From NCBI RefSeq assembly GCF_023701745.1, contig NZ_JAJOZB010000001.1, forward strand, positions 7,797,001 to 7,861,000: a stretch of 64,000 bases of DNA. Direction: 5' to 3'. The translations under genes and the position numbers were made by a program. Source of the DNA: Streptomyces sp. RKAG293 (GTDB lineage: Bacteria > Actinomycetota > Actinomycetes > Streptomycetales > Streptomycetaceae). The notes beneath the pieces were generated by a model that saw only the letters and a program-made list of their open reading frames with translations, had not been told where the DNA came from and did no database searches. Positions 1 through 20,915 of this stretch are shown here, piece after piece; within the stretch, counting starts at the first letter, position 1, and every line of letters begins with the position of its first letter.

Positions 1-1089
1 ACGGCGAGCGGTGCGTACCGGGCGAGCGAGTCGGCCCGGGACTGCGGCGGCTTCGACGTCGCCGTGGTGACCGTGCCGACCCCGTTGCACGAAGGTGTGC
101 CGGACCTGCGCTACATCGAGGAGTCGGCGCGCACGCTGGCCCGCTATCTGCGCCCCGGGGCGACGGTCGTCCTGGAGTCGACCACCTATCCGGGCACCAC
201 CCAGGAGCTGTTCGGACCGCTCCTGGAGGACGGTTCGGGAATGACCGCCGGAGCCGACTTCCATCTCGGCTACAGCCCGGAGCGCATCGACCCCGGAAAC
301 CCCGTCTGGGGCTTCCAGCAGACGCCGAAGGTGGTCTCGGGAGTCGACGCGGCGTCCCTGAAGGCCGTGCAGAGCTTCTATGACGACCTGGTCGACACGA
401 CGGTGCCGGTCGGCTCGCCGAAGGAGGCCGAACTGGCCAAGCTGCTGGAGAACACCTTCCGGCATGTGAACATCGCGCTGGTCAACGAGATAGCGATGTT
501 CGCGCGCCACCTCGACATCGACGTCTGGCAGGCCATCGAAGCGGCGTCCAGCAAGCCGTTCGGCTTCATGAAGTTCACCCCGGGACCCGGCGTCGGCGGC
601 CACTGCCTGCCGATCGACCCCTCGTACCTGTCCTGGCGGGTACAGCGTGAGCTCGGCCAGAGCTTCCGCTTCGTCGAGCTGGCGAACGACATCAACAGCC
701 ACATGCCCGACTACGTGACGCGCCGGATCATCGACGTCCTCAACACCAAGCGCCGCTCGGTGAACGGCTCGCGCGTCCTGCTGCTCGGACTGGCCTACAA
801 GAAGAACACCGGCGACGCCCGTGAGTCGCCGGCGCTGCGGATCTCCCAGCTGCTGCTCAACATGGGCGCCAAGGTCAGGGCGGCGGACCCGCACGTGGTG
901 GAGAGCATGGCGGTCGACACCCGGCTCGTCCGGGTCGAGCCGACCCAGAAGGAGCTGGCGGCGGCCGATGTGGTCGTCCTGCTCACCGACCACGACTCCT
1001 TCGACTACGACCTCGTCACGGAGCACGCCTCCTTCGTCCTGGACTGCCGTCGCAAGCTGTCCGCCGGACCCACGATCGAGGTGCTCTGA
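1..1089 (+). CDS. UDP-sugar 6-dehydrogenase (UDP-GlcNAc/UDP-ManNAc dehydrogenase type), 5' end missing
   Basis: The frame is open from base 1, so the N-terminal NAD-binding GxGxxG strand lies outside the window. The visible part begins just before the VVTVPTPL motif that follows the Rossmann core in this family. It contains the ELAKLLENTFRHVNIAL central helix and the GGHCLPIDP motif with the catalytic cysteine, and ends with the C-terminal UDP-sugar-binding domain (LLGLAYKKNTGDARESP). The family oxidises C6 of a UDP-hexose(amine) to the uronic acid with two NAD+. Motifs and pairing with a UDP-GlcNAc 2-epimerase 4 bases downstream favour a WecC/WbpA-like enzyme over UDP-glucose dehydrogenase, but substrate cannot be fixed by eye. 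It is probably the first step to an acetamido-uronic acid for the surface polysaccharide. Confidence 0.93.
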   Translation, partial: TASGAYRASESARDCGGFDVAVVTVPTPLHEGVPDLRYIEESARTLARYLRPGATVVLESTTYPGTTQELFGPLLEDGSGMTAGADFHLGYSPERIDPGNPVWGFQQTPKVVSGVDAASLKAVQSFYDDLVDTTVPVGSPKEAELAKLLENTFRHVNIALVNEIAMFARHLDIDVWQAIEAASSKPFGFMKFTPGPGVGGHCLPIDPSYLSWRVQRELGQSFRFVELANDINSHMPDYVTRRIIDVLNTKRRSVNGSRVLLLGLAYKKNTGDARESPALRISQLLLNMGAKVRAADPHVVESMAVDTRLVRVEPTQKELAAADVVVLLTDHDSFDYDLVTEHASFVLDCRRKLSAGPTIEVL

Positions 1090-1093
1090 CCCG

Positions 1094-2218
1094 ATGAGGA
1101 TCATCTGCGTCGCCGGAGCGCGACCCAACTACATGAAGATCAAACCGGTGATGGACGCCCTGGAGCGCCGGGGCGCCGAGGTGGTTCTCGTCCACACCGG
1201 ACAGCACTACGACGAGTCCATGAACGAGGTGTTCTTCCGCGACCTCGGGATCCGGCCCCCCGACCGCTTCCTCGGCGTCGGCTCGGGCACGCACGCCGAG
1301 CAGACCGGACGGGTGATGGCGGCCTTCGAGCCGCTGCTCGACGAGGTGGCACCGGACGCGGTGGTGGTGGTCGGGGACATCAACTCCACCCTCGCCTGCG
1401 CCCTGGTGACCGCGAAGGCCGGCCCGCTGCTGGCCCATGTCGAGGCCGGGCTGCGCAGCCGCGACTGGAGCATGCCGGAGGAGGTCAACCGCGTCGCCAC
1501 CGACCGGGTCAGCGACTATCTGCTGGCCCCGTCGCCCGACGCCGCGGTGAACCTGCGCGCCGAGGGGTACCGGGACGACCAGATCCATGTCGTCGGCAAC
1601 GTCATGATCGACACCCTGCTCGCCAACCTGGAACGGGCCAGGAAGTCGGACGTCCTGGAGCGGTACGGGCTCACCCGGGGCGAGTACGGCCTGGTCACCC
1701 TGCACCGGCCGGCCAACGTGGACGACCCGGAGTCGCTCACCGGGCTGCTCAAGGCGCTCGGCGAGATCGCCGGCCGCTGTCCGCTGCTGCTGCCCGTGCA
1801 CCCGCGGGCGGCCGGGCGGCTGGCCGAACTGGGCGTGCCCGGCGGGATCCGGCTGGTGCCGGCGGCCGGGTACCTCGACTTCATCGCCCTGCAGGACTCC
1901 GCCCGTGTCGTCCTGACCGACTCGGGCGGCATCCAGGAGGAGACCACCGCGCTGGGCGTGCCGTGCGTGACCCTGCGGGACAACACGGAACGCCCGATCA
2001 CCGTCGAGCAGGGCACCAACGTGCTGGCGGGCCGGGATCCCGAGCGGATCGTCGCCACGGTGAACCGGGTGCTCGACAACCCGCCCGCGGCCCGCTGCCC
2101 GGAGCTGTGGGACGGGCACGCCAGCGACCGCATCGCCGAGGTCCTGCTGGGAGGGGGCGGCGCGAGCGGCCGGCTGAGACCCACCGACCTGCGGGTGCAG
2201 GACGACCCGGGCAACTAG
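1094..2218 (+). CDS. wecB: UDP-N-acetylglucosamine 2-epimerase (non-hydrolysing)
   Basis: This 374-residue protein interconverts UDP-GlcNAc and UDP-ManNAc, or the corresponding uronic acids in WbpI-type enzymes. Family signatures appear in order: GARPNYMK near the N terminus, HTGQHYD, GDINSTLA, HVEAGLRS, TLHRPANVDDPE and the UDP-binding TDSGGIQEE near residue 285. Length is normal for the family. The ATG lies 4 bases after the dehydrogenase stop, so the two genes are almost certainly cotranscribed. Together they can make a ManNAc-type uronic acid donor. Whether the substrate is UDP-GlcNAc or a 2,3-diacetamido uronate is not visible in the sequence. Confidence 0.95.
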   Translation: MRIICVAGARPNYMKIKPVMDALERRGAEVVLVHTGQHYDESMNEVFFRDLGIRPPDRFLGVGSGTHAEQTGRVMAAFEPLLDEVAPDAVVVVGDINSTLACALVTAKAGPLLAHVEAGLRSRDWSMPEEVNRVATDRVSDYLLAPSPDAAVNLRAEGYRDDQIHVVGNVMIDTLLANLERARKSDVLERYGLTRGEYGLVTLHRPANVDDPESLTGLLKALGEIAGRCPLLLPVHPRAAGRLAELGVPGGIRLVPAAGYLDFIALQDSARVVLTDSGGIQEETTALGVPCVTLRDNTERPITVEQGTNVLAGRDPERIVATVNRVLDNPPAARCPELWDGHASDRIAEVLLGGGGASGRLRPTDLRVQDDPGN

Positions 2219-2417: not shown

Positions 2418-3299
2418 ATGGATCTCGCAGAGATCTGCCGGGTCATGCGCAGGCGTTGGTACGTGCTGCTGCCCGGACTGCTGCTCACCGCAGCTCTGAC
2501 GGCCGGTGTGTATCTGATGGTGCCGGTCACGTACCAGTCGCAGAGCACGGTGGCGCTCCTCAACTCGCAGAAGGCCACCGTCGCCTTCGACGGCAACCCC
2601 TTCCTGAGCACGCAGACCTCGCTCACGGGGATGGCGGACAGCCTCGCCCGCAATCTGAACTCCGATGCCTCGATCGTGGACCTCAGGGCGCAGGGCCTCA
2701 CCGGGGTCTACCAGGCGAAGATCGCCGACAACGCGCAGGGCCCGCTCATGTGGCTCACGGTGACGGGTACCGACCCGGCGAGCGTTCTGGAGTCGGACAA
2801 GATCCTGACGACGTACGCCGAGGCCCGGTTGAAGCAGTTCCAGACGGAGCAGTCGGTGGCTCCGAACGCCATGATCCGTATGACGACGGTCGTGCCCCCG
2901 CAGAACCCGGTGGCCGAGACCAAGAAGCGGCTGCAATACCTGATCATGGCCGGCCTGCTGGGGTTCGTGTCCAGCATGGTGGCCGCGTTCTACGTCGAGG
3001 CCCGGCGGCGGCCGCGGCCCGCCTCGCAGCCGGTGGTCGCGAGCGTGCCGGCCGTCGAGGACGGGACGGACGAGCAGCCGGCGGCACCGCCGGTCGCAGG
3101 TCCCGTTCCGCCGGCCGCCGTTCAGCCGGCGGCGCCGCAACCGGCCGCGGTCCAGAAGACGGCGGCGGGGGAGCCGGCCGGACAGCCCGCGGCACCATCC
3201 ACGGCAACACCGACGGTCCGGCCGGCTCCCCGGTGGTCGAAGCCCGTCGAGGAGTCCGACTCCGAAGCAACCGAGACAGAAGCGCATCGGTTTGTGTGA
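2418..3299 (+). CDS. Wzz/capsular polysaccharide chain-length (PCP) membrane protein
   Basis: This 293-residue polysaccharide co-polymerase starts with MDLAEICRVMRRRWY and a first membrane helix around residues 15-35. An extracytoplasmic domain follows, with the YQSQSTVALLNS strand typical of Wzz proteins. A second membrane helix lies near residues 172-192 (YLIMAGLLGFVSSMVAAF). The last 100 residues are a Pro/Ala-rich cytoplasmic tail without a Walker motif, so this is not a Wzc-type tyrosine kinase. A GAGGGGG ribosome-binding site precedes the ATG. Its N-terminal module closely resembles that of the fusion at 9148-11202 (shared EIC.V.RRRWY and VAL..S). Inferred role: control of polymer length or export. 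Confidence 0.85.
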   Translation: MDLAEICRVMRRRWYVLLPGLLLTAALTAGVYLMVPVTYQSQSTVALLNSQKATVAFDGNPFLSTQTSLTGMADSLARNLNSDASIVDLRAQGLTGVYQAKIADNAQGPLMWLTVTGTDPASVLESDKILTTYAEARLKQFQTEQSVAPNAMIRMTTVVPPQNPVAETKKRLQYLIMAGLLGFVSSMVAAFYVEARRRPRPASQPVVASVPAVEDGTDEQPAAPPVAGPVPPAAVQPAAPQPAAVQKTAAGEPAGQPAAPSTATPTVRPAPRWSKPVEESDSEATETEAHRFV

Positions 3300-3338: not shown

Positions 3339-4928
3339 ATGGAGAGGGCACGCGTAACGGCCACCACGGCCGGCGAAACGCCCGGTACGACCGGCATATC
3401 CGTCCCCCCGGTGCTCGACGGGGCCGGGCCCGGCACGGAATCCGCCCTCGGGCCGGCAGCCGACCTGGAAACGGCCCCGGCCCCGCCGTCGCTGGGCCAG
3501 AAGGTCAGGTCGGCCGCCCGGTGGAGCCTGATCAACACCGTCGTCATGCGACTGGGCAACTTCGCGACGGGGATCATCCTGGCGCGCTTCGTCCTGGGGC
3601 CGGCGGCGTGGGGCGTGTACGGCATCGCCCAGACGGTGCTGCTGGTCCTGCTGTCCGCGAACGAACTCGGCGTCGGGCTGGCCATCGTGCGCTGGGAGGG
3701 CGACGCCCGCCGGTTCGCGCCGACCGTGCTGACCCTCAGCGCGATCTCCAGCTGTGTGCTGTACGTGGCGCTGTTCACCGCCGCCCCGACCGTGGCGCGG
3801 CTGCTGGGCTCGCCCGAAGCCTCGGGCGTGCTGCGGGTGATGTGCATCTGTGTGGTGCTCGACGGGCTGTCGCAGGTGCCCGCAGGCTTCCTCACCCGTG
3901 AGTTCGCCCAGGGCAAACGGATGGTCATCGACGCGCTCAACTTCGTGCTGAGCACCGCGGTGACCCTGCTGCTGGCCTTCGAGGGCTGGGGCGCGATGAG
4001 CTTCGCCTGGGGAGCGGTGGTGGGGAACGTCGCGGCCCTGATCGGCTGCTGTCTGGCCGCCCCGGGGACGCTGAGGTTCGGCTGGGACCCGGAGCAGGCG
4101 CGGGCGCTGCTCCGGTTCGGGCTGCCGCTCGCCGGGGCCAGCATGCTGGCCCTCGGCGTGGTCAACGTGGACACGATGGTGGTCGGCTCGACCACCGGCA
4201 AGGTGGCGCTGGGCTTCTACGTGCTCGCGTTCAACATGTCGGGCTGGCCCGTGCGGATCATCTCCGAGGCGGCGCGCCGGGTCTCCTTCGCCGGGTTCTC
4301 CCGGCTGGCCGACTCGCCACAGGCGCTCGCCCAGGGGTTCAGCCGCGCGCTGGGCGTCCTGATCACCGGCACGGTCCCGCTGTGCGTGCTGCTGGGGGTC
4401 CTCGCGGGCCCGATCGTCGGACTCGTCTACGGGGACCAGTGGCTTCCCGCCGCGAAGGCACTGCCCTGGCTGATGGTGCTCGGACTGGTGCGCATCGGCT
4501 GCGAGCTCGCGTACGACTGCCTGGTCGCCATCGGACAGCGCCGTTCGCTGATCATGGTGCAGGGCCTGTGGCTGGTCGCCCTCATCCCGGTACTGATCTT
4601 CGCCGGCCGCGCCGAGGGCATCGTCGGGGTCGCGCAGGGCCATGTCCTGGTCGCGGGCGGCCTCGTGGTGCCGGTGTTCCTCTTCGCGCTCAGCCGGGGA
4701 GGCATCAGCCTGCGGTCGATCGGCCGGGCCTGCGCCTGGCCCTTCCTCGGCGGGGGCGTGATGGCCGCGGTCATCCTCGGCCTGGAGCGGGGCATCGGCG
4801 ACAGCAAGCCCGCCCTCTTCGCCATCGGCACCGCCGCGCTGCTCAGCTACATCGTGTGCGTACTGCCCAGCCGCGACTTCCTGCGTGGCACCCGGCCCAG
4901 CGGCGGCCGGCACCGGAAGATCGCGTGA
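3339..4928 (+). CDS. Wzx-like lipid-linked oligosaccharide flippase (MOP superfamily)
   Basis: This 529-residue polytopic membrane protein has about 12-14 hydrophobic helices after a disordered N-terminal stretch of about 60 residues. The start of the membrane domain (ARWSLINTVVMRLGNFATGIILAR) is typical of the polysaccharide-biosynthesis/oligosaccharide-flippase family (RfbX/Wzx). The family moves undecaprenyl-linked repeat units from the inner to the outer face of the membrane. AAGGAG precedes the ATG at 3339. It follows the PCP protein by 39 bases and likely shares its transcript. Flippase plus PCP plus polymerase in this locus indicates a Wzy-dependent route. Confidence 0.87.
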   Translation: MERARVTATTAGETPGTTGISVPPVLDGAGPGTESALGPAADLETAPAPPSLGQKVRSAARWSLINTVVMRLGNFATGIILARFVLGPAAWGVYGIAQTVLLVLLSANELGVGLAIVRWEGDARRFAPTVLTLSAISSCVLYVALFTAAPTVARLLGSPEASGVLRVMCICVVLDGLSQVPAGFLTREFAQGKRMVIDALNFVLSTAVTLLLAFEGWGAMSFAWGAVVGNVAALIGCCLAAPGTLRFGWDPEQARALLRFGLPLAGASMLALGVVNVDTMVVGSTTGKVALGFYVLAFNMSGWPVRIISEAARRVSFAGFSRLADSPQALAQGFSRALGVLITGTVPLCVLLGVLAGPIVGLVYGDQWLPAAKALPWLMVLGLVRIGCELAYDCLVAIGQRRSLIMVQGLWLVALIPVLIFAGRAEGIVGVAQGHVLVAGGLVVPVFLFALSRGGISLRSIGRACAWPFLGGGVMAAVILGLERGIGDSKPALFAIGTAALLSYIVCVLPSRDFLRGTRPSGGRHRKIA

Positions 4929-5008: not shown

Positions 5009-6148
5009 ATGCTCCGAAGACGAAGCCGCATAGTGCTCTTTTTACTGGCGGGGGTCCTGCTGGCAGGCGTCCTGACCGTGTTTCTGGCGACCCGCTCCAG
5101 CACCGGTGAGCACTCGGTCGCGGACTGCCCGGACAGTGCGTTGACGTGTCCAGGAGGGTCGCCTCCCCCCGATGACGCCGCCCCGCCCACGCCCACGCCC
5201 GGCAGCAGCACGACCGTGCCCGGAGCCGGCAGCGGCACGCCCGTACCCCTCCCGACGGTGCATCCCCCCACCACCGGGGGCGCGAGCACCGGCACCGGGA
5301 AGTTCCCGGCATCAGGGCCGTGCGCGTCGCCCACCGCCTGTGGCTTCCCCGACGCGACCACCACCGGGCCGCGCATCGCCCTCAAGCCGCACAACACCGG
5401 CGCGCTGAGCATCACCAAGGACGGCACGGTGATCCGCGGCTGGGACATCACCGGCTCGCTCGACATCTACGCCAACAACGTCACGATCATCGACAGCCGG
5501 ATCACCTCCACCAACTGGTGGGGTGTGAACCTCCGCCCGAAGTTCAGCGGCCTGCGGGTGCTGCACTCGACCATCACCGGGATCCCCGGCAAGGGACCGG
5601 ACAACGGCGGCGAGGACTACGGGGTCTCCAACATGGGCGGCAGCTCCATCGAGGTGGGATGGTGCGACATCTCGGTGTTCAGCAACTCGCTGTCCATGGG
5701 GCAGGGAAACCTGCACGACAACTACGTGCACGGCCTCGTCCCGTTCATCAACTCGTCCGGCCAGTGGGCCCACACCGATGCCGTGATCAGCGACGGCGCA
5801 GGCTCCGCCCCGCTGATCGTCCGGCACAACACCCTGCTGAACCCGGTCGGCGTCGAGAAGGGCGGGACCGCGAGCATCGGTCTGTACGACGACACCGGCG
5901 CGGTCCTGAGCACCGTCGTGGACAACAACTGGCTGGCCGGCGGCTCCTACGCGCTGTACGGCGGGGGCGCCGGCGCCAAGGGGATCCAGGTCATCAACAA
6001 CGTCTTCTCGTCGGAGTACCACCCCGGCAGCGGCCACTACGGTGCGGTCGCGCACTGGAACACCGGCGGGTCGGGGAACGTCTGGAGCGGGAACCGGATG
6101 TCGGACGGCACTCCGGTCGTGCCCGCAGCAGGACCTACTGGGGGATGA
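5009..6148 (+). CDS. Secreted right-handed parallel beta-helix protein
   Basis: I place the start at ATG 5009, 5 bases after AGGTGG, rather than GTG 5000, giving 379 residues. A membrane/signal segment (IVLFLLAGVLLAGVLTVFLA) is followed by a Pro/Thr-rich linker of about 70 residues. The rest has the repetitive N-N-V/I-I pattern of a beta-helix (for example YANNVTIIDSRI, VVDNNWLAGG, VINNVFSS). Such folds occur in polysaccharide lyases, glycoside hydrolases and mannuronan epimerases. I see no certain catalytic motif, so the enzymatic role is open. Its position between the flippase and an acyltransferase suggests action on the exported polymer. The stop codon is one base before the next ATG. Confidence 0.75.
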   Translation: MLRRRSRIVLFLLAGVLLAGVLTVFLATRSSTGEHSVADCPDSALTCPGGSPPPDDAAPPTPTPGSSTTVPGAGSGTPVPLPTVHPPTTGGASTGTGKFPASGPCASPTACGFPDATTTGPRIALKPHNTGALSITKDGTVIRGWDITGSLDIYANNVTIIDSRITSTNWWGVNLRPKFSGLRVLHSTITGIPGKGPDNGGEDYGVSNMGGSSIEVGWCDISVFSNSLSMGQGNLHDNYVHGLVPFINSSGQWAHTDAVISDGAGSAPLIVRHNTLLNPVGVEKGGTASIGLYDDTGAVLSTVVDNNWLAGGSYALYGGGAGAKGIQVINNVFSSEYHPGSGHYGAVAHWNTGGSGNVWSGNRMSDGTPVVPAAGPTGG

Positions 6149-6149
6149 C

Positions 6150-7361
6150 ATGACCGAGGCCGTGCCTGACGCCGGCCGGCTGACGCCGCGGTCCATCGCG
6201 GTGCCGCCGACCACGGAACCGACCGCGGCGCCGACCGCGGATACCCCGGAGCGGGGGCGGCTGCCCTCGCTCACCGGGTTGCGGTTCGCCGCGGCGTTCC
6301 TGGTGTTCGGGTTCCATCTGCAGGTCGCCCACCTCTTCCCGGCCGGGTCCAGCGGCGACCTGCTGCTGGGCCGGGTGTTCGGGCACGGCGCGATCGGCGT
6401 GTCCTTCTTCTTCATCCTCAGCGGCTTCGTGCTGACCTGGTCCGCCAGGCCGGGGGAGCGGGCCCGCCGGAGCTGGCGCAAACGTGCCGCGAAGATCTAC
6501 CCGAACCACCTGATCACCGCGCTCGCCGCGCTGGTCGCCGTGGCCGGGGGAGCGGCATCGGCCACCGGCGGCGGCTCCCCGGGCGTCGTCGTCCCGAACC
6601 TGCTGCTCGTCCAGTCCTGGAGCCGCGACCCGGACGTCTACTTCGGGCTCAACACCGTCTCCTGGTCGCTCTCCTGCGAGGCCTTCTTCTACCTGCTCTT
6701 CCCCTGGCTGCTGCGCGGGCTGACCCGGCTGGGCCCGCGGGCGCTGTGGCCGCTGGCGGCCGGGCTGACCGTGCTGACCTGCTGCCTCCCGCTGGTCACG
6801 GCGGGCTGGTCGGAGCCGACCGCGTACTGGTTCCTCTACGTCCTGCCGGCCACCCGGATCAGCGAGTTCTGCCTCGGCATGGTGCTCGCCCGGATCGTCC
6901 GTACCGGGCAGTGGATCCGCTTCCCGATCTGGGCCGCCGGCCTGCTCCTGGTCGCCGCGTATGTGTCGGTCGGCTATCTTCCGGTGCGCTTCGGCTACGT
7001 CGCGGCCACCGTCGTACCGTTGGCGCTGCTGATCCCGGCGCTCGCCACCGCCGACCTCGCGGGGCGGCGCACGCTGTGGTCGACCCGCCGGGCGGTCTGG
7101 CTGGGCGAGGTCTCCTTCGCCTTCTACATGGTGCACCAACTCGTCATCCGCTTCGCGAGCAAGGCCCTGCACGTCCCGGCGGCGGGCGCCCCCGACTGGG
7201 GGGTGGCGCAGGTGATCGCGGTGGAACTGGCCATGCTGGCCGGCTCCCTGTGCGCTGCCGCGCTGCTGTGGCGGATCGTCGAGCGGCCGCTCCACCTGCT
7301 GCTGAGCGGCGGCTCCGGGCGACGCCGCGGACACCACGCACGTCCCGGAACGGCGACATGA
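6150..7361 (+). CDS. Acyltransferase family 3 (OafA/YrhL-like) membrane O-acyltransferase
   Basis: This 403-residue protein has about 10 hydrophobic helices. The family signature opens the domain: LPSLTGLRFAAAFLVFGFH near residue 40, then SFFFILSGFVLTWS and KIYPNHL. The family transfers acetyl or succinyl groups onto exported sugars or lipids. A GGGGG run lies just before ATG 6150, which starts one base after the beta-helix gene stop. The C-terminal stop overlaps the first possible ATG (7358) of the glycosyltransferase. In this locus it probably decorates the surface polysaccharide. Confidence 0.88.
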   Translation: MTEAVPDAGRLTPRSIAVPPTTEPTAAPTADTPERGRLPSLTGLRFAAAFLVFGFHLQVAHLFPAGSSGDLLLGRVFGHGAIGVSFFFILSGFVLTWSARPGERARRSWRKRAAKIYPNHLITALAALVAVAGGAASATGGGSPGVVVPNLLLVQSWSRDPDVYFGLNTVSWSLSCEAFFYLLFPWLLRGLTRLGPRALWPLAAGLTVLTCCLPLVTAGWSEPTAYWFLYVLPATRISEFCLGMVLARIVRTGQWIRFPIWAAGLLLVAAYVSVGYLPVRFGYVAATVVPLALLIPALATADLAGRRTLWSTRRAVWLGEVSFAFYMVHQLVIRFASKALHVPAAGAPDWGVAQVIAVELAMLAGSLCAAALLWRIVERPLHLLLSGGSGRRRGHHARPGTAT

Positions 7362-7372: not shown

Positions 7373-8179
7373 ATGCGTCGTATCGCCCGCGCCCCCTGGG
7401 AACTGCTCAAGTGGGCCTTCGGCTGGCTGGTGCTCTTCGAGACCAGGAACAAGCTCGTGCTGGCGCCCTCCGCCCTGCGGCTGCGCCGCTTCGAGACCGC
7501 CGAGACGGCTCGGCTGGCGGCTGTCCTGGGTCAGGTCCCCGAAGCGCTGGTCGCGACCGTGATCGCCACCCACCGGCGTCCGGAGGCACTGCTCGAAGCG
7601 GTACGTTCCGCGCTGGACCAGACCGTACGGGACCACGTCGTCATCGTCGTGGACGACTGCGCGGGGCTGCCGGAACTGCCCGACGACCCGCGGCTGTTCG
7701 CGGTGTCGCTGTCCCGGAACACCGCCACCGCGGGTATCGTCCGCAATGTCGGGATCCGGCTGACCCGCTCGCGGTACGTCGCCTTCCTGGACGACGACAA
7801 CCTGTGGGAGCCGGACCACCTGGAGCAGGCGCTGGCGGTGCTGGAGGCGCCCGGCGGACCCGACGGCGTCTACACCGCGCTGCGCCGCGTCCTGCCCGAC
7901 GGGACCGAGATGGACATCCTGTCGGTGCCCTTCGACCGCCGCAGGTCGGCCCGGGAATCCTTCCTGGACACCAACGCCTTCGTGGCCCGCCGCAACGGCT
8001 CGCTGCACTTCAGCCGGCTGCGCCGGACCCCCGAGGTGCTGCCGCGGGAGGACTGGGAGCTCATCCGCCGCTACAGCAGACGGCATGAGGTGCGGCATGT
8101 GCCGTGCCCCACCGTCCGGTACCTGGTGAACCCGGCGAGCTTCTACACGGCGTGGGAGGGCTCGGTGCCGCCTGCCTAG
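7373..8179 (+). CDS. Family 2 glycosyltransferase
   Basis: This 268-residue GT-A fold enzyme has VATVIATHRRPEALLEAV at the nucleotide-binding strand, VVDDC, and the metal-binding FLDDDNLWEPDHLE, followed by a short acceptor domain with REDWELIRRY. ATG 7373 is preferred because AGAGAGGA lies just upstream. ATG 7358, which overlaps the acyltransferase stop, is the alternative and adds five residues. No membrane helices are evident beyond an N-terminal amphipathic stretch. It likely adds one sugar of the repeat unit. The gene ends 12 bases from the convergent glycosyltransferase gene at 8192. Confidence 0.85.
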   Translation: MRRIARAPWELLKWAFGWLVLFETRNKLVLAPSALRLRRFETAETARLAAVLGQVPEALVATVIATHRRPEALLEAVRSALDQTVRDHVVIVVDDCAGLPELPDDPRLFAVSLSRNTATAGIVRNVGIRLTRSRYVAFLDDDNLWEPDHLEQALAVLEAPGGPDGVYTALRRVLPDGTEMDILSVPFDRRRSARESFLDTNAFVARRNGSLHFSRLRRTPEVLPREDWELIRRYSRRHEVRHVPCPTVRYLVNPASFYTAWEGSVPPA

Positions 8180-8191: not shown

Positions 8192-9148
8192 TCAGGGCCC
8201 GGGAGTCGCGCGCAGTGCGGACGAACTGAGCAGGGCGGCCGCGGCGGCCCTGCTCGCGGGCCGGCCGAGCGCTGCCCGCGAGGTCTCCCGCAGCAGGACC
8301 GCCGCCCGGAAGGCGGTGGTCGCCAGCGGTCCGTGCCGGCGCCCGTAGAGCCGGACGCGGTTGAGCGTCAGCAGGGTCCACAGGCGCGGCGAGACCTGGG
8401 AGTCGCCGCCGAGGTGCATCGCACTGGCCGCGGGTTCCAGCCGGGTCGCATAGCCGTGGTCCCCGGCCCGCAGGCAGTACTCGGTCTCCTCGGAGTAGAG
8501 GAAGAACGACTCGTCCCACGCACCGCAGGTGTCCAGGCAGTCCTTCGACAGCGCCATCAGGGCCCCGGTCGCCCAGTCGGCCCGGGTCGGGCCCTCGTAC
8601 GCGGCGGGGTCGGTGACCATTTCGCTCCAGCGCGGGAAGCGGCCGGCCCTGCGGTTGCCCACGACCGCCTCGCCGAGCGCCCGGGTCACGCTCGACTCGC
8701 GGCGCAGCGACTGCAGGGGCGCACCGTCCTCCTCCTCGTACAGCAGGGGCACGCTGATGCCGACGCGGTCGCCGTCGGGCAGCTCGCTGCCGAGCGCGTC
8801 GACCAGCACCTTGGCGCAGCCCGGCCGCATGCGGATGTCGGGGTTGCACACCAGCGCGGCACGGAAGCCGCCGTCCCACTGCGCGGCGGCGCCCAGCGCC
8901 GCGTTCACACCGGCCGCGTATCCGGCGTTGCGGCCGGTCTGGACGACGGTGGCGTCGGGGGCGAGGGCGCTCAGTACGGCCACGGTGTCGTCGGCCGAGT
9001 CGTTGTCGGCGACGACGAGCCGCCAGTCGAGACCGGCCATGCCTGCCGGGAGCGAGGCGATGAACTCCGGGAGCACCGCGGCGCTGTTCCAGGTGACGAC
9101 AAGGACGGCGACAGGGCCGGTGCCCTCGGCCGCGTTCTTGGGGGGCAT
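8192..9148 (-). CDS. Family 2 glycosyltransferase (rhamnosyltransferase-like)
   Basis: This 318-residue enzyme has AVLVVTWNSAAVLPEFI at the N terminus, VVADNDSADDT, the NAGYAAGVN segment seen in WbbL/RfbN-type rhamnosyltransferases, VCNPDIRM with the metal-binding aspartate, and DESFFLYSEETEYCLRA in the acceptor region. Its ATG overlaps the stop of the upstream polymerase gene as TGATG, showing tight translational coupling. A role in adding a deoxyhexose or similar sugar to the polymer is inferred from family and position; the donor is not known. Confidence 0.87.
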   Translation of the reverse strand: MPPKNAAEGTGPVAVLVVTWNSAAVLPEFIASLPAGMAGLDWRLVVADNDSADDTVAVLSALAPDATVVQTGRNAGYAAGVNAALGAAAQWDGGFRAALVCNPDIRMRPGCAKVLVDALGSELPDGDRVGISVPLLYEEEDGAPLQSLRRESSVTRALGEAVVGNRRAGRFPRWSEMVTDPAAYEGPTRADWATGALMALSKDCLDTCGAWDESFFLYSEETEYCLRAGDHGYATRLEPAASAMHLGGDSQVSPRLWTLLTLNRVRLYGRRHGPLATTAFRAAVLLRETSRAALGRPASRAAAAALLSSSALRATPGP

Positions 9149-11202
9149 CAGGACTCCACGAGTTGGGATTCGGCTTCGCGCCGGACGGGCGCGGCGGTCC
9201 TCGGTTCGGTTGCGGACGGGGTCACGGGCGGGGCGGCGGGCACGTCGGCCGCCCGGGCTTCCGCGTCGCGCCGGATGAAGCCCAGGTAGCTGCCGCCGGC
9301 GCCGAGGGTCAGGAAGAAGATTCCGGCGAACATGGGGAAGCCGAGGGCGTCGAACGTCGCACTGATGACGAGGGCGACCACGGCCGAGGCGAAGAACGCC
9401 TGCCCCAGCTCGCGGTCGGACTCGGTACGGGCGAGGCGGCGGATGGCGCCCCCGTTGTGGATCCCGGCGATGAACAGGGTCAGGAGCGCGACCAGCCCCA
9501 GGGCGCCCATCTCGGCCAGGGTCATCATGTACTGGTTGTCCGTGAAGAAGTAGAGGTCGGGCATGAACGTCCCGAAGCCGCGTCCGAACAGCGGACGTTC
9601 GGTGAGATAGGGAACGATCGCGCTGTACTTCACGGTGCGGGCCTGGGTGCTGCTGTCGGAGTTGTTCAGGAACGTCGCGAACAGGGTGGTGATGGTCCCG
9701 ATCAGCCCGGGGATGATCACCTTGAAGCAGGCGACCGACCCGATCAGCAGGCCGATCGCGCTCCAGCGCCGTTGCGGTGTCCAGCGGGGCATCATGATGA
9801 GGGCGACCAGCAGGGCGCCGATGATGGACGTCCTCGACACCGTCAGCGGCAGGGCGCCGCCCATGATCGCGACGGGCCCCCAGCGGCGGAACACGCTGAG
9901 GTGCTTGCGCACCGGATCGAAAGCCTGATGGATGGCGAACGGGACGAGGATGGCCAGCATCCCGCCGAACTCCAGTGGCTGCGCGGTGGTGGAGCGCGGC
10001 CGGGTGAAGGAGCCGCGGTCCATGGCGGTGATCTGGGCGACGCTCGTGTTCAGGCCGGGGACGTTGATGTGGTCGGCGATGTTGGTCGCGGTGAAGAAGT
10101 CGTAGTAGCCGATCGCGGCCACCACGGTTCCCATCACGATGACCCGGCGCATCAGGACGTCGAGGCGGTCGCGGGTCTGGATTCCGGCGGAGACCAGGAC
10201 CACCAGGGACACCCACACCAGGAGCCCGATGAGTCCCCGGTCGGCGGCCAGGATCTCCTTGTGCGAACTGCTGCGGCCCGCGTTCGCGAGGTAGGACATC
10301 AACACCGCGACGGTGAGCAGGCACATCGCCACCCGCGGCAGCCGGGTGCCCGGGGCCGGGCGGATCCGGCCGGTGAGCCAGGCCGCCAGGTACCAGAAGA
10401 GCCCGAGCAGGGCGAAGACGTTGGCGGGGGTGCCGACGCCGCCGAGCGCGGGCAGCGCGAGGTCCGAGGGGATGAAGAGGGCCAGCGCCATGTACCCGGT
10501 GAGGATCGCGGTGGCGTCCAGCCGCCGGCCCCAAAGGCCCCTGGGAACCCGCTTGGCGGGCCAGGGGTCGATGTCCGATCCCGCGATCCTGCGGCGGCGG
10601 GTCAACGCGATGCTCTCGGTCACGAAGGACAGCGCGAACGCGGCGGCGACGCCGATGATGATGACGCCCATGACCTGCTGGTACCGGCTCTTGAGCTGCG
10701 AGACCGGTACCTGCGGCAGTACGACGGGCGTGGTCTGGACGAAGTACGCCGGCGAGACCTTGGCCTCGGTCTGGAGGGCCTTGAGCGCTTCGCCGGCGAA
10801 GTCCGTGATGGTGGTGGTCTCGTTGAGCACCTTCGCCCGGTCGGTGCCCGTGACGGTCAGGGTGATGAGCGGTCCTGAGGTGTTCGCCGCGAAGGCGACC
10901 GTGTACGGGTCCGTGACACCGCGGGTGCTCAGGTCGCGCGCCGAGTCGGACGAGGCCAGGGTGCGGATCAGGACGTCCGCCGTGACGATCAGCGAACCGC
11001 CGGCGTTCGATATGGGGTTGCCGAAGGTCGGAGCCAGTTTGGCGACTCCCCTGGAGTCGAGCAGGGCGACGGAACTCTGCGACTGGTAGGCCACCGGGAC
11101 CGTCCGGTTCAGGTACAGGCCCGCGAAGAGACTGAGCAGGGTGATCGGCACCATGAAGTACCAGCGCCTGCGCAGCACGGCACAGATCTCACTGAGGCTC
11201 AT
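9148..11202 (-). CDS. Fusion of Wzz-like chain-length domain and O-antigen polymerase/ligase-like membrane domain
   Basis: This protein has 684 residues. Residues 1 to about 215 repeat the Wzz-like module (MSLSEICAVLRRRWYF, helix, YQSQSSVALLDSR, second helix near 190-210). From about residue 235 to 645 the protein has roughly ten membrane helices, with a loop carrying LTVSRTSIIGALL and RPLFGRGFGTFMP, typical of Wzy/WaaL O-antigen ligase-polymerase proteins. The tail is Ala/Pro-rich. The start at 11202 is chosen for the conserved MSLSEIC and a GGTGGG site upstream; a longer reading from 11280 adds only low-complexity residues. These two functions are normally separate proteins that interact, so the fusion implies a fixed 1:1 polymerase/length-control unit. 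Confidence 0.88.
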   Translation of the reverse strand: MSLSEICAVLRRRWYFMVPITLLSLFAGLYLNRTVPVAYQSQSSVALLDSRGVAKLAPTFGNPISNAGGSLIVTADVLIRTLASSDSARDLSTRGVTDPYTVAFAANTSGPLITLTVTGTDRAKVLNETTTITDFAGEALKALQTEAKVSPAYFVQTTPVVLPQVPVSQLKSRYQQVMGVIIIGVAAAFALSFVTESIALTRRRRIAGSDIDPWPAKRVPRGLWGRRLDATAILTGYMALALFIPSDLALPALGGVGTPANVFALLGLFWYLAAWLTGRIRPAPGTRLPRVAMCLLTVAVLMSYLANAGRSSSHKEILAADRGLIGLLVWVSLVVLVSAGIQTRDRLDVLMRRVIVMGTVVAAIGYYDFFTATNIADHINVPGLNTSVAQITAMDRGSFTRPRSTTAQPLEFGGMLAILVPFAIHQAFDPVRKHLSVFRRWGPVAIMGGALPLTVSRTSIIGALLVALIMMPRWTPQRRWSAIGLLIGSVACFKVIIPGLIGTITTLFATFLNNSDSSTQARTVKYSAIVPYLTERPLFGRGFGTFMPDLYFFTDNQYMMTLAEMGALGLVALLTLFIAGIHNGGAIRRLARTESDRELGQAFFASAVVALVISATFDALGFPMFAGIFFLTLGAGGSYLGFIRRDAEARAADVPAAPPVTPSATEPRTAAPVRREAESQLVES

Positions 11203-11360: not shown

Positions 11361-12044
11361 GTGTCGCCTGGCGAGCTCGTCCGTGCGCTGCTCCGCCGCT
11401 GGTACGTACTCGTACTGGCGGTGCTGCTCACCGCTGCCGGCGCCTATCAGGTACTCCGGCCCGCCCAGTCGTATCTGAGCTCGGCGGTCGTCGTGCTCAA
11501 GCCGCCGGTGACCGACAACCAGCCGAACCAGCTCGCGAATCTGCAGCCGCCGCTCGCCGCCGTCTCCTACGCGATCATCCAGCAGATGGAATCGTCCGCG
11601 GGCGAGGCCGAACTGGCCGCCGCCGGCGTGCACGGCACGTACAAACTGATTCCGCGCAACAGCGGCACCAGTGCCACTCCGCGTTATCTGATCCCCTCGT
11701 TGCAGGTCCAGGCGGAACAGCCGGAGCTGATCGCCGCGGACGCGGCGGTGCGGCAGATCATCGAGGTCTACACCAAGCACCTGCAGGACATGCAGTCGGC
11801 GCAGGGGATCCCGTCCGCGTCGCGGATGAGCGTGGACCTCCTGGTGCCGCCCAGCGCCGCCGCGGAACTCGGCACCAAGAGCCGCGGGCTCGCCGGGGTG
11901 GCGCTGCTGGGCGCCGTCGGCGGGGTGCTGGCCGCCCTGTGGACCGACCAGTTCCTGAACCGCAGGCGGCTGCGCCGCGGCGCGGACACCGCCCGGCCGC
12001 GTCCGGCCGAGGACCGGATCCAGGCGGTTCCGCTGCCCCGCTGA
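11361..12044 (+). CDS. Third Wzz-like membrane protein
   Basis: This 227-residue protein begins at GTG 11361 after GGAAGGAAG. It opens with MSPGELVRALLRRWY and a membrane helix at about 17-35, has an extracytoplasmic domain, and a second helix near 177-197 (GLAGVALLGAVGGVLAALW). A short basic tail follows. It resembles the other two PCP modules in layout, but its extracytoplasmic part is more divergent. It is transcribed away from the fusion gene, with 158 bases between them that probably hold promoters for both. Likely role: assistance in chain-length control or export. Confidence 0.78.
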   Translation: MSPGELVRALLRRWYVLVLAVLLTAAGAYQVLRPAQSYLSSAVVVLKPPVTDNQPNQLANLQPPLAAVSYAIIQQMESSAGEAELAAAGVHGTYKLIPRNSGTSATPRYLIPSLQVQAEQPELIAADAAVRQIIEVYTKHLQDMQSAQGIPSASRMSVDLLVPPSAAAELGTKSRGLAGVALLGAVGGVLAALWTDQFLNRRRLRRGADTARPRPAEDRIQAVPLPR

Positions 12045-12082: not shown

Positions 12083-13129
12083 TCAGATGCCCCGGCGCTT
12101 CCAGGACTGCCACCAGAGCCACTCACGGCCGCGGTCGGCCACCGCCGACAGCACCAGGGGCTGCAGATACGGCATCGTCCGCGCGCCGATCCGCTGCCGC
12201 CGGCGCAGCGCCCGGTACTCGGGCAGCTTCTCGTAACCCGGCAGGCACTCACCGGCGAACGCCACGAGTTCATCGACGGGAACCACATCGGTACGCCCGC
12301 GGTCGTAGGCCCGGTAGGCGCGGCGCAGCGCGAAGCGGGCGAGCCGGGTGTGCACCGCGGCCGACAGCCGGTCGGCCCGTGGCAGCAGGTCGGCGCACTT
12401 GTCGAGCACCGCGTCGAAGGCGACCAGACGCTGGCGGAGGTCGTCGAGCTGTCCGCCGAAGTCCGTGGTGGACATGTTGTTGCCGTGCACTCGGTAGAAG
12501 GCCTGGTCGGCGCCCTGGATGTAGCCGACGTCGGCGTGCGCCGCGAGCCGCATCCACATCTCGATGTCGCCCGCGTGCGGGAGCGCCGGATCGTAGCCGC
12601 CCACCTTGCGCTGCAGGCTGGTCCTGACGACCACCTCGGGCGAGGTGATGCAGCCGGTGGCCTCCTGGAAGCGCCGCTCCAGCCACCACTGCCCGGGGTA
12701 GACGACGGAACCGGTGCTCCGGGTGCGGGCCTTGGGCAGCGGGCCGCCGTGCTGGAAGCGCAGCGGTCTGCCGTAGCAGAATCCGGCCTCCGGATGGGCG
12801 TCCAGCAGCGCTGCCGCGCGCACCAGCGCCCCGGGGACCAGCCGGTCGTCCGCCGAGAGCAGGACGACGTAGTCGCCGTCGGCCCACTCCAGCAGGCCCT
12901 CGTTGTAGGTGGCGATGTGCCCCTTGTTCTTCTCGTGGACCCGGACCTCGATCCGCGGGTCGGCGGCCGCCAGCGCGTGCGCGGCCTGCGCGGAGTCGTC
13001 GGGCGAGGCATCGTCGATGATCAGCACCCGGACATCGAGGCCCTCCTGCTCGTCCAGCACGCTGCGCACGCAGTCGGCCAGGAAATGGCCGTACTTGTAG
13101 CAGGGGATCACGACGCTGACGGTGCTCAT
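12083..13129 (-). CDS. Family 2 glycosyltransferase
   Basis: This 348-residue protein starts MSTVSVVIPCYKYGHFLADC, has LIIDDASPDDS, GHIATYNEGLLEWADGDYVVLLSADD (metal-binding region) and HAGDIEMWMRLA in the acceptor half. The pattern is that of GT2 enzymes in exopolysaccharide loci. It is the last gene before a convergent junction with the Wzz-like gene at 11361-12044, 38 bases away. A strong hairpin separates it from the upstream secreted-protein gene, so it is probably transcribed from its own promoter around 13130-13156. Confidence 0.86.
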   Translation of the reverse strand: MSTVSVVIPCYKYGHFLADCVRSVLDEQEGLDVRVLIIDDASPDDSAQAAHALAAADPRIEVRVHEKNKGHIATYNEGLLEWADGDYVVLLSADDRLVPGALVRAAALLDAHPEAGFCYGRPLRFQHGGPLPKARTRSTGSVVYPGQWWLERRFQEATGCITSPEVVVRTSLQRKVGGYDPALPHAGDIEMWMRLAAHADVGYIQGADQAFYRVHGNNMSTTDFGGQLDDLRQRLVAFDAVLDKCADLLPRADRLSAAVHTRLARFALRRAYRAYDRGRTDVVPVDELVAFAGECLPGYEKLPEYRALRRRQRIGARTMPYLQPLVLSAVADRGREWLWWQSWKRRGI

Positions 13130-13156
13130 CGTTAGGAAGCCAATCCCCGGTCGGCC

Positions 13157-13197
13157 TCGGGGGAGGCGGCCCGGACCCACCGGGCCGCCTCCCCCGA
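13157..13197 (-). terminator. Strong 18-bp hairpin terminator
   Basis: Bases 13157-13174 and 13180-13197 are perfect inverted repeats of 18 bases around the loop ACCCA. The hairpin follows the stop of the secreted DUF4082 gene in its direction of transcription, so it should end that transcript. No T-tract is present. Confidence 0.8.
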
Positions 13198-13272
13198 CCC
13201 GGACCGGTGGGTACGGGTGGAAACGTTGGTCGAACGGACCGGTCCGGGGCGCCGCCCCGGACCGGCTCGGGA

Positions 13273-16200
13273 CTACTTGGCCGGTACCACCTCCGTGGAA
13301 CTGTCCGTCTGGGCCAGGGCCGGCGGCGTCGTGGTGAAGATCGGGCCGACCCAGTAGTTCGCGGACCCGTAGGAGCCGTTCGGGAACGACGAGGTGGTCC
13401 CGTAGGCGTAGAGCCCGTTGGAGCCACCGCTGCCGTCGGCCGGTGCGACCAGCGGATAGGACTGGTGCGCCCCGCTGAAGTAGCCGCCGTCGACCGCGTA
13501 GTTGCCGTTCGGTGCGTGGTAGGAGGCCACGTAGCCGGTACCCGCGGTGATGGGCACCGGGGTGGCGAAGAGCAGCTGCTGCCACCCGGACGTGGTCTCA
13601 CTGCCGAAGGTTCCGGTCGCGAGCAGCGTGCCGGTGGAGGACCACAGGGTGCCGGTGTGCGTGCCGGTGTTTCCCGGACCCTTGTAGAAGGTGATGCCGG
13701 TGATGTAGCCGTTCACCGCCGACTGGAACCGGGTCCCCAGTTCGAGGGAGTTGGTGTCTCCGGTCGTGTTGGCCGTGGTCGGTACGGCGCTGCCGGGCCA
13801 CAGGGTGCAGGGGCAGTTGACGACCGGTGGTGTCGGACTGGTGGTGAAGTTCCACGTCGTCGGCGCCGCCATCGCGTTGCCCCACAGGTCCTCGGCCTGC
13901 ACGGACGCCGTGTACGTGGTGTTCAGCGCCAGTTCGGTGGAGGGTGTGAACGTCGCGCTGTTCGCGGCGGTCAGCACCTTGGTCCCGGGAACGGAGGCGC
14001 CGCCCGCGTCCTTCAGCGTGAACGTCAGGGTGTCGCCGTCGATACCCTCGCTGAAGATGGCCTTCACCGGTGAGGTGATCGGCACGCCGGTCGCCGCGGA
14101 CTGCGGTGTGGTCGTGCTGACCGCGGGCGGGACGGTGCTCGCGCCGGAGGTGTCCAGGACCGCGTCCACCCAGTAGTTGCTGCCCGTCGAGGCCGTCGAC
14201 GGGAAGGCGCTCGTCGCACCGTAGTGGTACACGCCGTTGCCGCCGTCGGTGCCGTTCTGCAGCGCCGTGAGCGGTGCCAGCCCCGCGGAGTTCCCGGTGA
14301 AGGTGCTGTCGTAGGAGTATCCGCCGTTCGGGGCGAAGTACGACGCGACGTACGTGGTGTTCGCCTTCACGGGCACCGGTGAGGCGAAGTTCAGCTGCTG
14401 CCAGCCGGACGCCGTCTCGTTGGTGAAGGTGCCGGTGGCCAGCCGCTGGCCGGTGGCGCTCCACAGGCTGCCGGTGTGGGTCCCGGTGTTGGCCGGGGAC
14501 TTGTAGAACCGGACACCGGTGATCGATCCGGTCACCGAGGAACGGATCTTCACACCGAGCTCCAGCGAGCTCCCGTCACCGGCGTTGACGGTGCCGGGAA
14601 CGGCCGCCGCCGGCCACACGGTGCAGGGGCACTGCTGCGGGCCGACCGTCAGCGGAACCGTGGTGGTGGCGCCGATGTTGACGCTGTCGTCCACGGCCCG
14701 CACCTTGATCTGCGCCGCGCCCGGGCTCGTCGGGGTCCAGCTGTAGCTCCAGGACGTCAGTCCCGTGGTCGGGTTCCAGGTGGTTCCACCGTCGGTGGAG
14801 ACCTCCACCCGGGCCACCACGCCGCCGGAGTCGGCCGCGGTCCCGCTGATGGTGAGCGGCTTGAGCGCGGGCACGGTGACATTGGCCGCCGGGCTGGTCA
14901 CGCTGATGGTCGGACCGACGGTGTCGGTGGAGGCCGACGCCAGGACCAGACCGCTCTGCAGGGTCTTCGGCTGCAGACCCATGTCGGCCAGGATGTTCAC
15001 GGTGGCCTGCTGCATCCGCTTGTCCGCGGTCACCACCGCGTCGTCCGGGTTGCTCGTCGGGATGTTGGTCAGGCCCCACGACCACTGCACGGTGCCGGCC
15101 CCGAACACCAGGGCGTGCGACGTCTGGTCACGGAAGGCGACGAGGTTGTGCGTCGCGGTGCCGTTGCCGTACGTGTTGCCGTAGTCGAGTCGGAGCTTGC
15201 CGTCGTTGATGTCCACCGTGGTGGACGACATGTCGATCTGACCGGCGGGTCTGGTGCTGTTGGACAGATCGCTGTCCCATTCGTAGCCGAGCGTTCCGGT
15301 CGGGAAGGTGGCGGTCTGGGACGGGGTCAGGCTCGCGACCGTGGTGTTGCGCCAGAGCCGTTGCTTGCTGTAGGTGCCCGGCACGGTGATCGCGTCACTG
15401 CGGTAGCCGTTCACGGTGAACATCGAGCCGGTGAGGATGTTCTCCGGCTGGAACGGCTGCCCGTTGGCGGTGCTGTTGGGGTCCATCCAGGTCCCGGTCC
15501 AGATGCCGCTGGGGTCGGGGATGCCGTCGGGCTGGGCGAGGAACCGTTTGGTCTCCTTGTAGCAGACCAGCGTGCGGTTGGCGACGTTGGCCCCGTCGAT
15601 GCTCGGTGCGAACCGGGTCTTCCAGAACACCTCGTTGCCGCTGAAGTACGTCTGGTGGACCCCGGCGTGCCGCGCGTTCAGCACATTCGTGAACTGGTCC
15701 TGGGTCCAGTACTCGTCATGGCCCGACGACATGAACATCTTGTGGTTCAGCAGTTGCGGGCCCCGGGTCGACACGTCGAGCCCGGTCATGTAGCTGACGT
15801 CGTAGCCGTTCTGCTCCAGCCACGAGATCATCTCGTACTCGGAACCGTAGATCCCGTTGTCACCGCCGACGCTCAGCGGCCGGTTGTAACTGACCTCGTA
15901 GGCGCGCCCGTCGGGGGCGGGACCGCCGCCGTCGTAGAGGCTCTGGCCACCCCACGTGTTGTACGCCTGCCAGGTCTCGTCGTCGGTCTGCACGACGATG
16001 TCGGAGTGGCTGGAGTCGTTGCGCACGATGAACGGGTACGGCATCACGCCTTCGCCGTCGGCCTGGTCGAAGTTGGCGATGTACAGACCGGAGACGGCGT
16101 CACTCGGCACCGTCCAGCTCGCCGTGACGGGCCAGTTGCCGCAGTCCACCAGCCCGGTGGTGGGCTTCTTGGTGCAGTTGCGCGGCTTGCCGTCCGGCAC

Positions 16201-16751: not shown

Positions 16752-17867
16752 TCAGCGCAGGGCGTCGGTGAGAGTGTCCACGACCCGTTGCTGTTGATCG
16801 GCGGTGATCTGCGGGAAGAGCGGCAGCGAGAGGATCCGGTCCGCCGCCTCCTCGGCGTTCGGGAAGTCGCCGCGACGGTGGCCGAGATGGCCGAAGGCCG
16901 GGGTGAGATGGACCGCGGCCGGGTAGTGCACCCCCGCGCCGATGCCCTCCGCGTTGAGCTTGCCCACGACGTCGTCGCGGTCCGCTCCGGCGACCCGTAC
17001 GACGTACAGGTGCCACACGTGCACATTGCCGTCGACCGTCGTCGGCAGCACCACGCGCCCGGCGGCCGCCAGATCGCCGAGCAGCGCGTCGTACCGGGCC
17101 GCCGCGGCCCGCCGGGCCGCGTTCCCGTCGGCGAGCCGGGCCAGCTTGGCCCGCAGGACGACGGCCTGCAGCCCGTCCAGCCGGCTGTTGAAACCGGCCA
17201 CGTCATGGCGGTACTTGGCGACACCGCCGTGGTTCGCGAGCGCCCGCACCAGGTCGGCCCGCTCCGCGTCGTCGGTCAGCACCGCGCCCGCGTCACCGTA
17301 GGCGCCGAGGTTCTTGCCCGGGTAGAAGCTGGTGGCGGCGATGCCACCGCTGCCCGGGGCCCTGCCGTCCCGGGTGGCGCCCTGGCTCTGTGCCGCGTCC
17401 TCGACGATCCGGACGTGCGCTGGCACGGCCGCGGCCAGTTCGGCCACCTCGGCGGACTGCCCGTACAGATGGACCGGGACCACCGCGCGGGTGGCCGCCC
17501 CGACCGCGTCCAGGGCGGCTTGGCCGTCCATCAGGAAGCTCTCGGGAAGGCAGTCGACCAGCACCGGCTTCGCACCGATCCTGGCGATCGCGCCGGCCGT
17601 GGCGATGAAGGTGTTCGCGGGCAGCACCACCTCGTCACCGACGCCGACCCCGCTCGCGCGCAGGGCCAGTTCGAGGGCGTCGGTGCCGTTGGCGACACCG
17701 ACACAGTGCGCGACGCCGGCGAATTCGGCGTACTCGCGCTCGAACTCCCTGACCTCGTCACCGCCGATGAAGGCGGTGTTGGCCAGGACCCGTTCGAATC
17801 CCTGGCGCACTTCGTCGGCGACTTCGGCATGCGCCGCCTTGAGGTCGACAAGCGGTATCTGGTTCAT
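16752..17867 (-). CDS. DegT/DnrJ/EryC1 family sugar aminotransferase
   Basis: This 371-residue PLP enzyme starts MNQIPLVDLKAAHAEV, has GVANGTDALELALRASG, EDAAQSQGA and the lysine-bearing SFYPGKNLGAYGDAGA motif at about residue 185. The closest recognised pattern is that of WbpE/FdtB/QdtB-type enzymes, which transaminate C3 keto sugars on nucleotide carriers. Its ATG overlaps the stop of the acetyltransferase frame (ATGA at 17867-17864). With the Gfo/Idh dehydrogenase at the start of the operon it fits a 3-oxo to 3-amino step, then N-acetylation. Nucleotide and sugar are inferred. Confidence 0.9.
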   Translation of the reverse strand: MNQIPLVDLKAAHAEVADEVRQGFERVLANTAFIGGDEVREFEREYAEFAGVAHCVGVANGTDALELALRASGVGVGDEVVLPANTFIATAGAIARIGAKPVLVDCLPESFLMDGQAALDAVGAATRAVVPVHLYGQSAEVAELAAAVPAHVRIVEDAAQSQGATRDGRAPGSGGIAATSFYPGKNLGAYGDAGAVLTDDAERADLVRALANHGGVAKYRHDVAGFNSRLDGLQAVVLRAKLARLADGNAARRAAAARYDALLGDLAAAGRVVLPTTVDGNVHVWHLYVVRVAGADRDDVVGKLNAEGIGAGVHYPAAVHLTPAFGHLGHRRGDFPNAEEAADRILSLPLFPQITADQQQRVVDTLTDALR

Positions 17868-18666
17868 GTGACTGGACTCCCCATCCGTGGCGCCGGCCCC
17901 GAGCCGGCGTCCTTACCCTCGGCACCCTCGGCCCGTAGCTCGTCGAGCGCCGGGACCACCGCCTCGCGCAGCCGGCGTGCCGGGCTGCCGATCCAGACCT
18001 CGCCCGGCGGTACATCGCCGAGCACCGTGCTTCCCATCCCGATCAGCGACCACGCGCCGACCGTCGTGTACTCGCGGACCAGGGCCCCCGAGCCCACATA
18101 GGCCCCCGCTCCAGCCGCGTACCCCCGCCGAGCCGGACCCCCGAGGCGATCGTCACGAAGTCCCCGACGACGTCGTCATGGGTGAGGACCGCGTGCGGCA
18201 TCACCGCCACATGCGCGCCGACCAGCACGGCGGCCGTCAGGACACTGTGCGCCAGGAGGACCGAGCCCGGTCCGACGACCGAGGAGCCCGACACCGCCGC
18301 GGTGGGGTGCACCACGGTGGCGTAGCGGTCCGCGGGCAGCCCGAGCCGCCGCACCAGGCGTGCCCGTACGGCGTAGTCCCGCGGACTGCCGACGCAGATC
18401 ACCACCAGCGCGCCGGGCAGTTCGTGCACCAGCTCGCACCCGCCCAGCACCGGCACGCCGTCCACGTCCCGGCCGTGCAGCGCGGGATCGTCGTCCAGGT
18501 GGCCGGTCAGCCGCCAGCGCGGGGCGCGGCCCCGGGCCACGTCGTCCGCGCTGACGTCCCGTACCGCCTGCGCCGTCTCACGGGCGAAGCCGCCCGCGCC
18601 GACGATCACGAGATCCGGGGTGCCGGACCCGGATCTGACGGGGTCGGGTCTCGCGGGGCCGCTCAT
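17864..18666 (-). pseudogene. NeuD/PglD-type sugar N- or O-acetyltransferase, split by a frameshift
   Basis: The upstream frame (18666 to about 18108) encodes an N-terminal sugar-nucleotide-binding fold (PDLVIVGAGGFARE) and the first left-handed beta-helix turns (VVHPTAAVSGSSVVGPGS, VVGDFVTIASGVRLGGGTRLE). It then runs into nonsense and stops at 18043. The rest of the beta-helix and tail (ALVREYTTVGAWSLIGMGS, GEVWIGSPARRLRE) continues in another frame down to 17864. Adding one base to the C5 run at 18103-18107 (plus strand) joins them smoothly through GAYVGSGAL. The start overlaps the previous gene and the stop overlaps the next gene, both as ATGA. The gene was therefore one translationally coupled unit. 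It is either a recent pseudogene or a sequencing indel. Confidence 0.85.
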
Positions 18667-20863: not shown

Positions 20864-20915
20864 CGCTCTTCCCCCACTGAATCGGTCATCGTGTGCCGTG
20901 GAACTGCCCGAACTC

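Follow-up and report, generated by a model that had tools for sequence, protein, structure and literature searches.

A natural single-chain PCP-Wzy fusion in Streptomyces sp. RKAG293 and its relatives, with a possible role as the polymerase of a mixed PCP ring

The window analyzed here, a 64,000-nucleotide stretch of the Streptomyces sp. RKAG293 genome whose first letter is position 1, harbors a polysaccharide locus (Table 1) that encodes, of the components expected for a Wzx/Wzy-type pathway, a flippase, glycosyltransferases, a Wzy protein, and PCP proteins but no initiating transferase: PF02397 has no match in the cluster and matches only elsewhere in the genome. The amino-sugar nucleotide genes of the locus also specify a NeuD-like acetyltransferase, an SDR, and a UDP-GlcNAc 3-dehydrogenase-like Gfo/Idh protein, and the gene content indicates that the product of the cluster is probably an acidic amino-sugar polymer, which is likely to be decorated by the encoded acyltransferase-3. 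Beside the cluster, positions 13273-16620 (minus strand) encode a protein of ~1115 amino acids that combines a DMFA2_C domain with several DUF4082 and bacterial Ig domains. A secreted-looking protein of 382 amino acids, with no Pfam match, is encoded between the flippase and the acyltransferase (5000-6148, plus strand); its sequence has the look of a right-handed beta-helix, and it is perhaps a polysaccharide lyase.

Table 1. Features of the RKAG293 locus (window positions) and reverse-order fusions of other actinobacteria (positions within the named locus)
Feature	Position	Strand	Basis or remark
Nucleotide-sugar dehydrogenase, 5' part left of the window	64..1089	+	PF00984/PF03720/PF03721, TIGR03026
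UDP-GlcNAc 2-epimerase (WecB type)	1094..2218	+	PF02350, TIGR00236 above cut-off
Free class A2 PCP (paralogue of the PCP in the fusion)	2418..3299	+	45% identity; tree
Wzx-type flippase (MOP family)	3339..4928	+	PF13440, E 1.5e-54
Acyltransferase-3, start not fixed	6042..7361	+	PF01757
GT2 glycosyltransferase, start not fixed	7376..8179	+	PF00535
GT2 glycosyltransferase	8192..9145	-	PF00535; start 2 nt beyond the fusion's stop codon
PCP-Wzy fusion gene, 684 aa	9148..11202	-	one uninterrupted frame; Pfam Wzy_C and Wzz; model of the full chain
Wzy/WaaL-type membrane domain, residues 230-653	9244..10515	-	Pfam, residue conservation, model, fold matches
Cytoplasmic linker, residues 208-229	10516..10581	-	length and sequence variable among relatives
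PCP module (class A1), residues 1-207	10582..11202	-	model and Foldseek; all nine near-invariant PCP residues present
Free class B PCP, divergent from the fusion	11361..12044	+	sequence comparison
GT2 glycosyltransferase	12083..13585	-	PF00535, E 8.6e-28
Amino-sugar nucleotide genes	16752..22040	-	DegT aminotransferases at 16752-17867 and 18663-19850
Reverse fusion	L089:5996-8065		same genus as L102 and L108 (three genomes; 689-698 aa)
Reverse fusion	L102:5964-8033		same genus as L089 and L108
Reverse fusion	L108:5345-7441		same genus as L089 and L102
Reverse fusion	L082:859-2841		660 aa; different family from L089, L102, and L108

The fused gene starts at an ATG at position 11202, ahead of which lies GGGGGTGGG, plausibly a ribosome site, and its stop codon ends at 9148; the initial annotation had given these same limits, and the gene is located on the minus strand. 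Pfam Wzy_C matches residues 444-574 of the product (E 3e-12; 47 bits, above the curated cut-off of 31.7), and Pfam Wzz matches residues 2-62 (E 0.001) with 19.7 bits, below the curated cut-off of 25.5. Both free PCPs of the locus are likewise under the cut-off of this profile, which is tuned to proteobacterial members, and the filing of the N-terminal module as a PCP was based on fold comparison. An AlphaFold2 model of the whole chain, built from 125 relatives (mean pLDDT 89.9, pTM 0.83), comprises TM1 (residues 14-34), an external alpha/beta domain, and TM2 (residues 170-207), followed by a lower-confidence linker and a polytopic helical domain (residues 230-653).

When compared with solved structures using Foldseek, the C-terminal part matched the WaaL ligase (7tpg; E 1e-7, probability 1.00) and the SEDS protein FtsW (8p1u; E 2e-4), which share its fold but carry no PCP, while the N-terminal part matched KpsE (PCP-3), WzzB, WzzE, and Wzc (PCP-2a) with probabilities of ~1 and E-values above 0.001. 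Unlike the fusion, neither KpsE, which belongs to an ABC exporter, nor the kinase-bearing Wzc is joined to a polymerase. Fold comparison was needed because a profile-based sequence search of solved structures with family profiles returned no relevant match; a model for the fusion was also not found in NCBIfam. Both folds being present in the modeled chain, the proposal of the initial annotation that a Wzz-like module is followed by an O-antigen ligase/polymerase-like domain is borne out: a Wzy/WaaL-type domain shares one chain with a complete PCP module, although the two are normally encoded by separate genes. The external PCP domain is small (approximately residues 35-170, or ~135 residues, with the longest modeled helix at 122-146), and the module was not filed as PCP-1 since it lacks a large external domain and a long helix. 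Nor was it assigned to PCP-2a or PCP-2b, as no TIGR01007 match over the cut-off, indicative of a CpsD/Wzc-type tyrosine kinase, was found in the genome; a tyrosine-kinase partner for the fusion was rejected on the same ground.

Mean pairwise identity among the fused proteins amounts to 68% for the PCP module, 31% for the linker (with 23% gaps), and 79% for the Wzy domain. The PCP module is gap-free among 35 fused proteins and retains all of the near-invariant PCP residues, and the Wzy domain harbors the invariant residues R396, R401, E411, R457, R522, D555, and D618, which suggest that it is an active enzyme. Judged by this pattern of conservation, the fusion consists of two constrained domains on a free tether.

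Among 298 sampled Streptomycetaceae genomes, 43 yielded a match, of which 39 encode the fused protein (with a frameshift in one, G020) and four, all belonging to genus g14, possess two adjacent genes. Species in which the fusion is present are, among others, Streptomyces katrae, S. flavotricini, S. roseus, S. avidinii, Streptacidiphilus carbonis, and Actinacidiphila soli. The g14 loci, which open-frame lengths had suggested to be long-linker fusions, and the genomes G596, G424, G523, G442, and G420, which had also been considered as fusions, were resolved by a domain scan as adjacent, separate genes. Of 70 loci from other actinobacterial families, 66 have the Wzy gene immediately preceded by a PCP gene on the same strand (58 with up to 600 nt between the domains and 8 more with 611-764 nt); the PCP gene is downstream in two of the four exceptions, and contig ends cut the other two. 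The same order is frequent in more distant classes of the phylum. The modules of such split pairs are homologous to those of the fusion and likewise ordered on a single strand, but they are separate genes; clusters of the Wzx/Wzy/Wzz type have been described for Actinoplanes missouriensis (PMC13390465). In the Wzy tree all fusions form one clade with g14 as its sister (100 at both nodes), and this topology accordingly points to one fusion event, in Streptomycetaceae.

The closest relative of the fused PCP module in the genome is the stand-alone class A2 protein, which is 45% identical over residues 1-196 (E 1.8e-37). The initial annotation had recognized this kinship from a common RRRWY start and a YQSQS.VALL strand, and both are indeed shared, reading RRRWY and YQSQSSVALL in the fusion and RRRWY and YQSQSTVALL in the free protein. 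The class B PCP, which that annotation did not mention, is located beside the fusion and is 31% identical to the A2 protein. In a tree of 53 PCP domains, the fused A1, the free A2, the split g14 PCP, and class B each form a clade, and the best tree places the A1/A2 duplication on the fused branch (support 92/82), with alternatives unrejected at p-AU 0.21 and 0.14. A second, free A-type PCP (A2) is present in 39 of 39 fused genomes and, at that level, in none of the four split g14 sisters, which suggests that the fusion may need a free PCP partner, the co-occurrence representing a single evolutionary event. Duplicates of the A-type PCP are also present, without a fusion, in two other families.

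Class B is an old class, recurrent across families on the opposite strand next to a PCP-Wzy pair, and many PCP-Wzy loci carry two unlike PCPs, namely, class B and that of the pair itself. In deep actinobacterial lineages, tandem double-PCP proteins are encoded beside a Wzy gene (L196:134-1411, L197:2808-4127, L198:2796-4001, and L199:2911-4212); these PCP-PCP fusions are perhaps another way of setting ring composition.

Single chains with the modules in reverse order, Wzy then PCP, are encoded at four loci from two other actinobacterial lineages. The C-terminal part of the L089 protein matches the PCP profile with an E-value of 5e-17; it starts with RRWY, and its helices and strands follow each other as in a PCP. 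In the structure model of the reverse fusion, the Wzy part is good and the PCP part weak, and the claim is, therefore, carried by the sequence profile. A separate free PCP gene is located upstream of the reverse fusions wherever the contig extends far enough. PCP and Wzy have, on this evidence, been joined independently at least twice, and probably three times.

The known system closest in kind is that of the enterobacterial common antigen, in which a PCP and a Wzy polymerase are in direct contact, with ~8 WzzE to 1 WzyE; Wzy lies inside the ring, in its membrane lumen, and the adjacent TM2 of the PCP points toward that lumen (PMC10030265). That complex consists of two separate proteins, and the external domain of WzzE is large and includes a long helix (PMC10030265), whereas the fusion is one chain with a small external domain and is accompanied by free PCP paralogues. 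The suggestion of the initial annotation that a covalent unit would by itself fix stoichiometry is not supported in that form, as a 1:1 chain conflicts with the measured ratio of ~8:1 (PMC10030265) and a free paralogue of this PCP is retained in every fused genome. We instead propose, with slightly more confidence than doubt, that the single-chain PCP-Wzy unit is the fused polymerase of a mixed ring completed by free PCPs.

According to this proposal, neighboring genes, PCP then Wzy, would have merged in the ancestor of part of the Streptomycetaceae, and the product would act in a Wzx/Wzy-type exopolysaccharide pathway as its PCP-Wzy unit. Two helices of the PCP module would hold the chain in the membrane, and from the fusion point, which immediately follows TM2 at the cytoplasmic face, a flexible cytoplasmic linker would lead into the Wzy domain, predicted to join lipid-linked repeat units at the outer face of the membrane. 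One fused chain would be the sole polymerase of its ring, in place of a ring of identical fused subunits, and the free A2 protein, perhaps together with class B, would complete the mixed ring around it at a ratio close to that of WzzE and WzyE.

The mixed ring is favored because it fits the geometry, the 8:1 ratio, and the constant presence of A2. The case for it draws on both folds, the 39-genome clade and its split sister genus, the upstream PCP in 66 of 70 loci, the independent reverse fusions, A2 in all 39 fused genomes, the variable linker, and the retained PCP residues. Against the proposal may be set the small external domain of the PCP relative to WzzE, such that ring size may differ, as well as the single evolutionary event behind the co-occurrence of fusion and A2, the A-type duplicates that occur without a fusion, the unrejected alternative placements of the A1/A2 duplication, and the absence of an initiating transferase from the cluster. 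We infer polymerase activity, the mixed ring, and an effect on polymer length alike, and the fused PCP is at present a putative chain-length regulator. With an external domain of only ~135 residues and no long helix of the WzzE kind, it is unlikely to act as a physical ruler, and activation or processivity is the more plausible function.

Among the alternatives, it appears unlikely that the fusion forms a PCP ring by itself, in which each PCP would bring one Wzy and the polymerases would be arranged around the ring, the free PCPs serving another step. All near-invariant PCP residues are present in the fused module, as is consistent with such a homo-oligomer, and an older proposal held that PCPs scaffold several Wzy proteins; that proposal was, however, discussed and rejected for WzzE, for which the measured ratio is 8:1 and the lumen has room for one Wzy (PMC10030265). 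By our reckoning, the eight polymerases of eight fused chains could not fit a lumen of ~57 Angstrom, and the free paralogue is always retained in fused genomes.

We also regard as unlikely a WaaL-like ligase that would transfer the completed polymer to an acceptor (wall or protein), the PCP tether bringing it to the chain end. The best match among solved structures is a ligase, and Wzy_C covers both polymerase and ligase activities, but the fusion is the only Wzy_C protein of the locus, the other two of the genome lying elsewhere, and its neighbors encode a flippase, glycosyltransferases, and PCPs. In addition, the invariant D555 and N556 stand at what we take to be the site of the catalytic HN motif of WaaL. 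From the genomic context, the C-terminal domain is likely to be a polymerase. Comparable PCP-Wzy pairs of Actinoplanes have been interpreted as polymerase and Wzz (PMC13390465).

That the fused PCP is a membrane tether or expression aid, with chain control left to the free PCPs alone, seems improbable. Free PCPs are always present and the fused A1 module evolves faster than the Wzy part, as the identities given above illustrate; its gap-free alignment and complete set of near-invariant residues nevertheless argue against so passive a role.

The linker of 36 fused proteins ranges from 23 to 47 residues in length. The missed internal start giving two proteins, which the initial annotation had named as a refutation, was looked for in the same 36 proteins: a Shine-Dalgarno-preceded start codon close to the Wzy domain was not found, and the few such internal starts detected lie within TM2 and are unconserved. 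An annotation artefact, through such a start or a sequencing error joining two genes, is given almost no credence, for although one genome (G020, corresponding to L186) carries a frameshift, it lies within the Wzy domain, away from the junction, over which the frame is open in all fused genomes (independent assemblies) and, in a second collection, at 25 loci. The frameshift belongs to one assembly, that of Streptomyces sp. SPB162 (L153 and L186), and reflects either a pseudogene or a sequencing error.

A PCP-Wzy fusion, its repeated origin in both orders, and a retained free paralogue were not found in the open papers searched, and the architecture may already be on record, uncommented, in domain databases. 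Both families, and a complex of separate proteins, were known. It is tentatively suggested, with some reservation, that there exists a natural fusion family, in both orders, which places one fused subunit in each ring of free PCPs in Gram-positives without the usual tyrosine kinase. One low-resolution complex is the main source of what is known about the contact between PCP and Wzy, their ratio, and the side of the ring involved. A natural fusion sets contact and topology genetically, Wzy beginning just after TM2 of the PCP on the cytoplasmic side, and thus offers a handle for structural work and for counting polymerases per ring, rendering the PCP-Wzy arrangement directly testable. Repeated fusion in both orders represents independent evolutionary evidence for direct contact between PCP and Wzy, and it comes from bacteria in which the pathway is little studied. 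If the mixed ring is correct, the fusion would be a natural version of the in-lumen Wzz-Wzy complex, with exactly one polymerase per ring.
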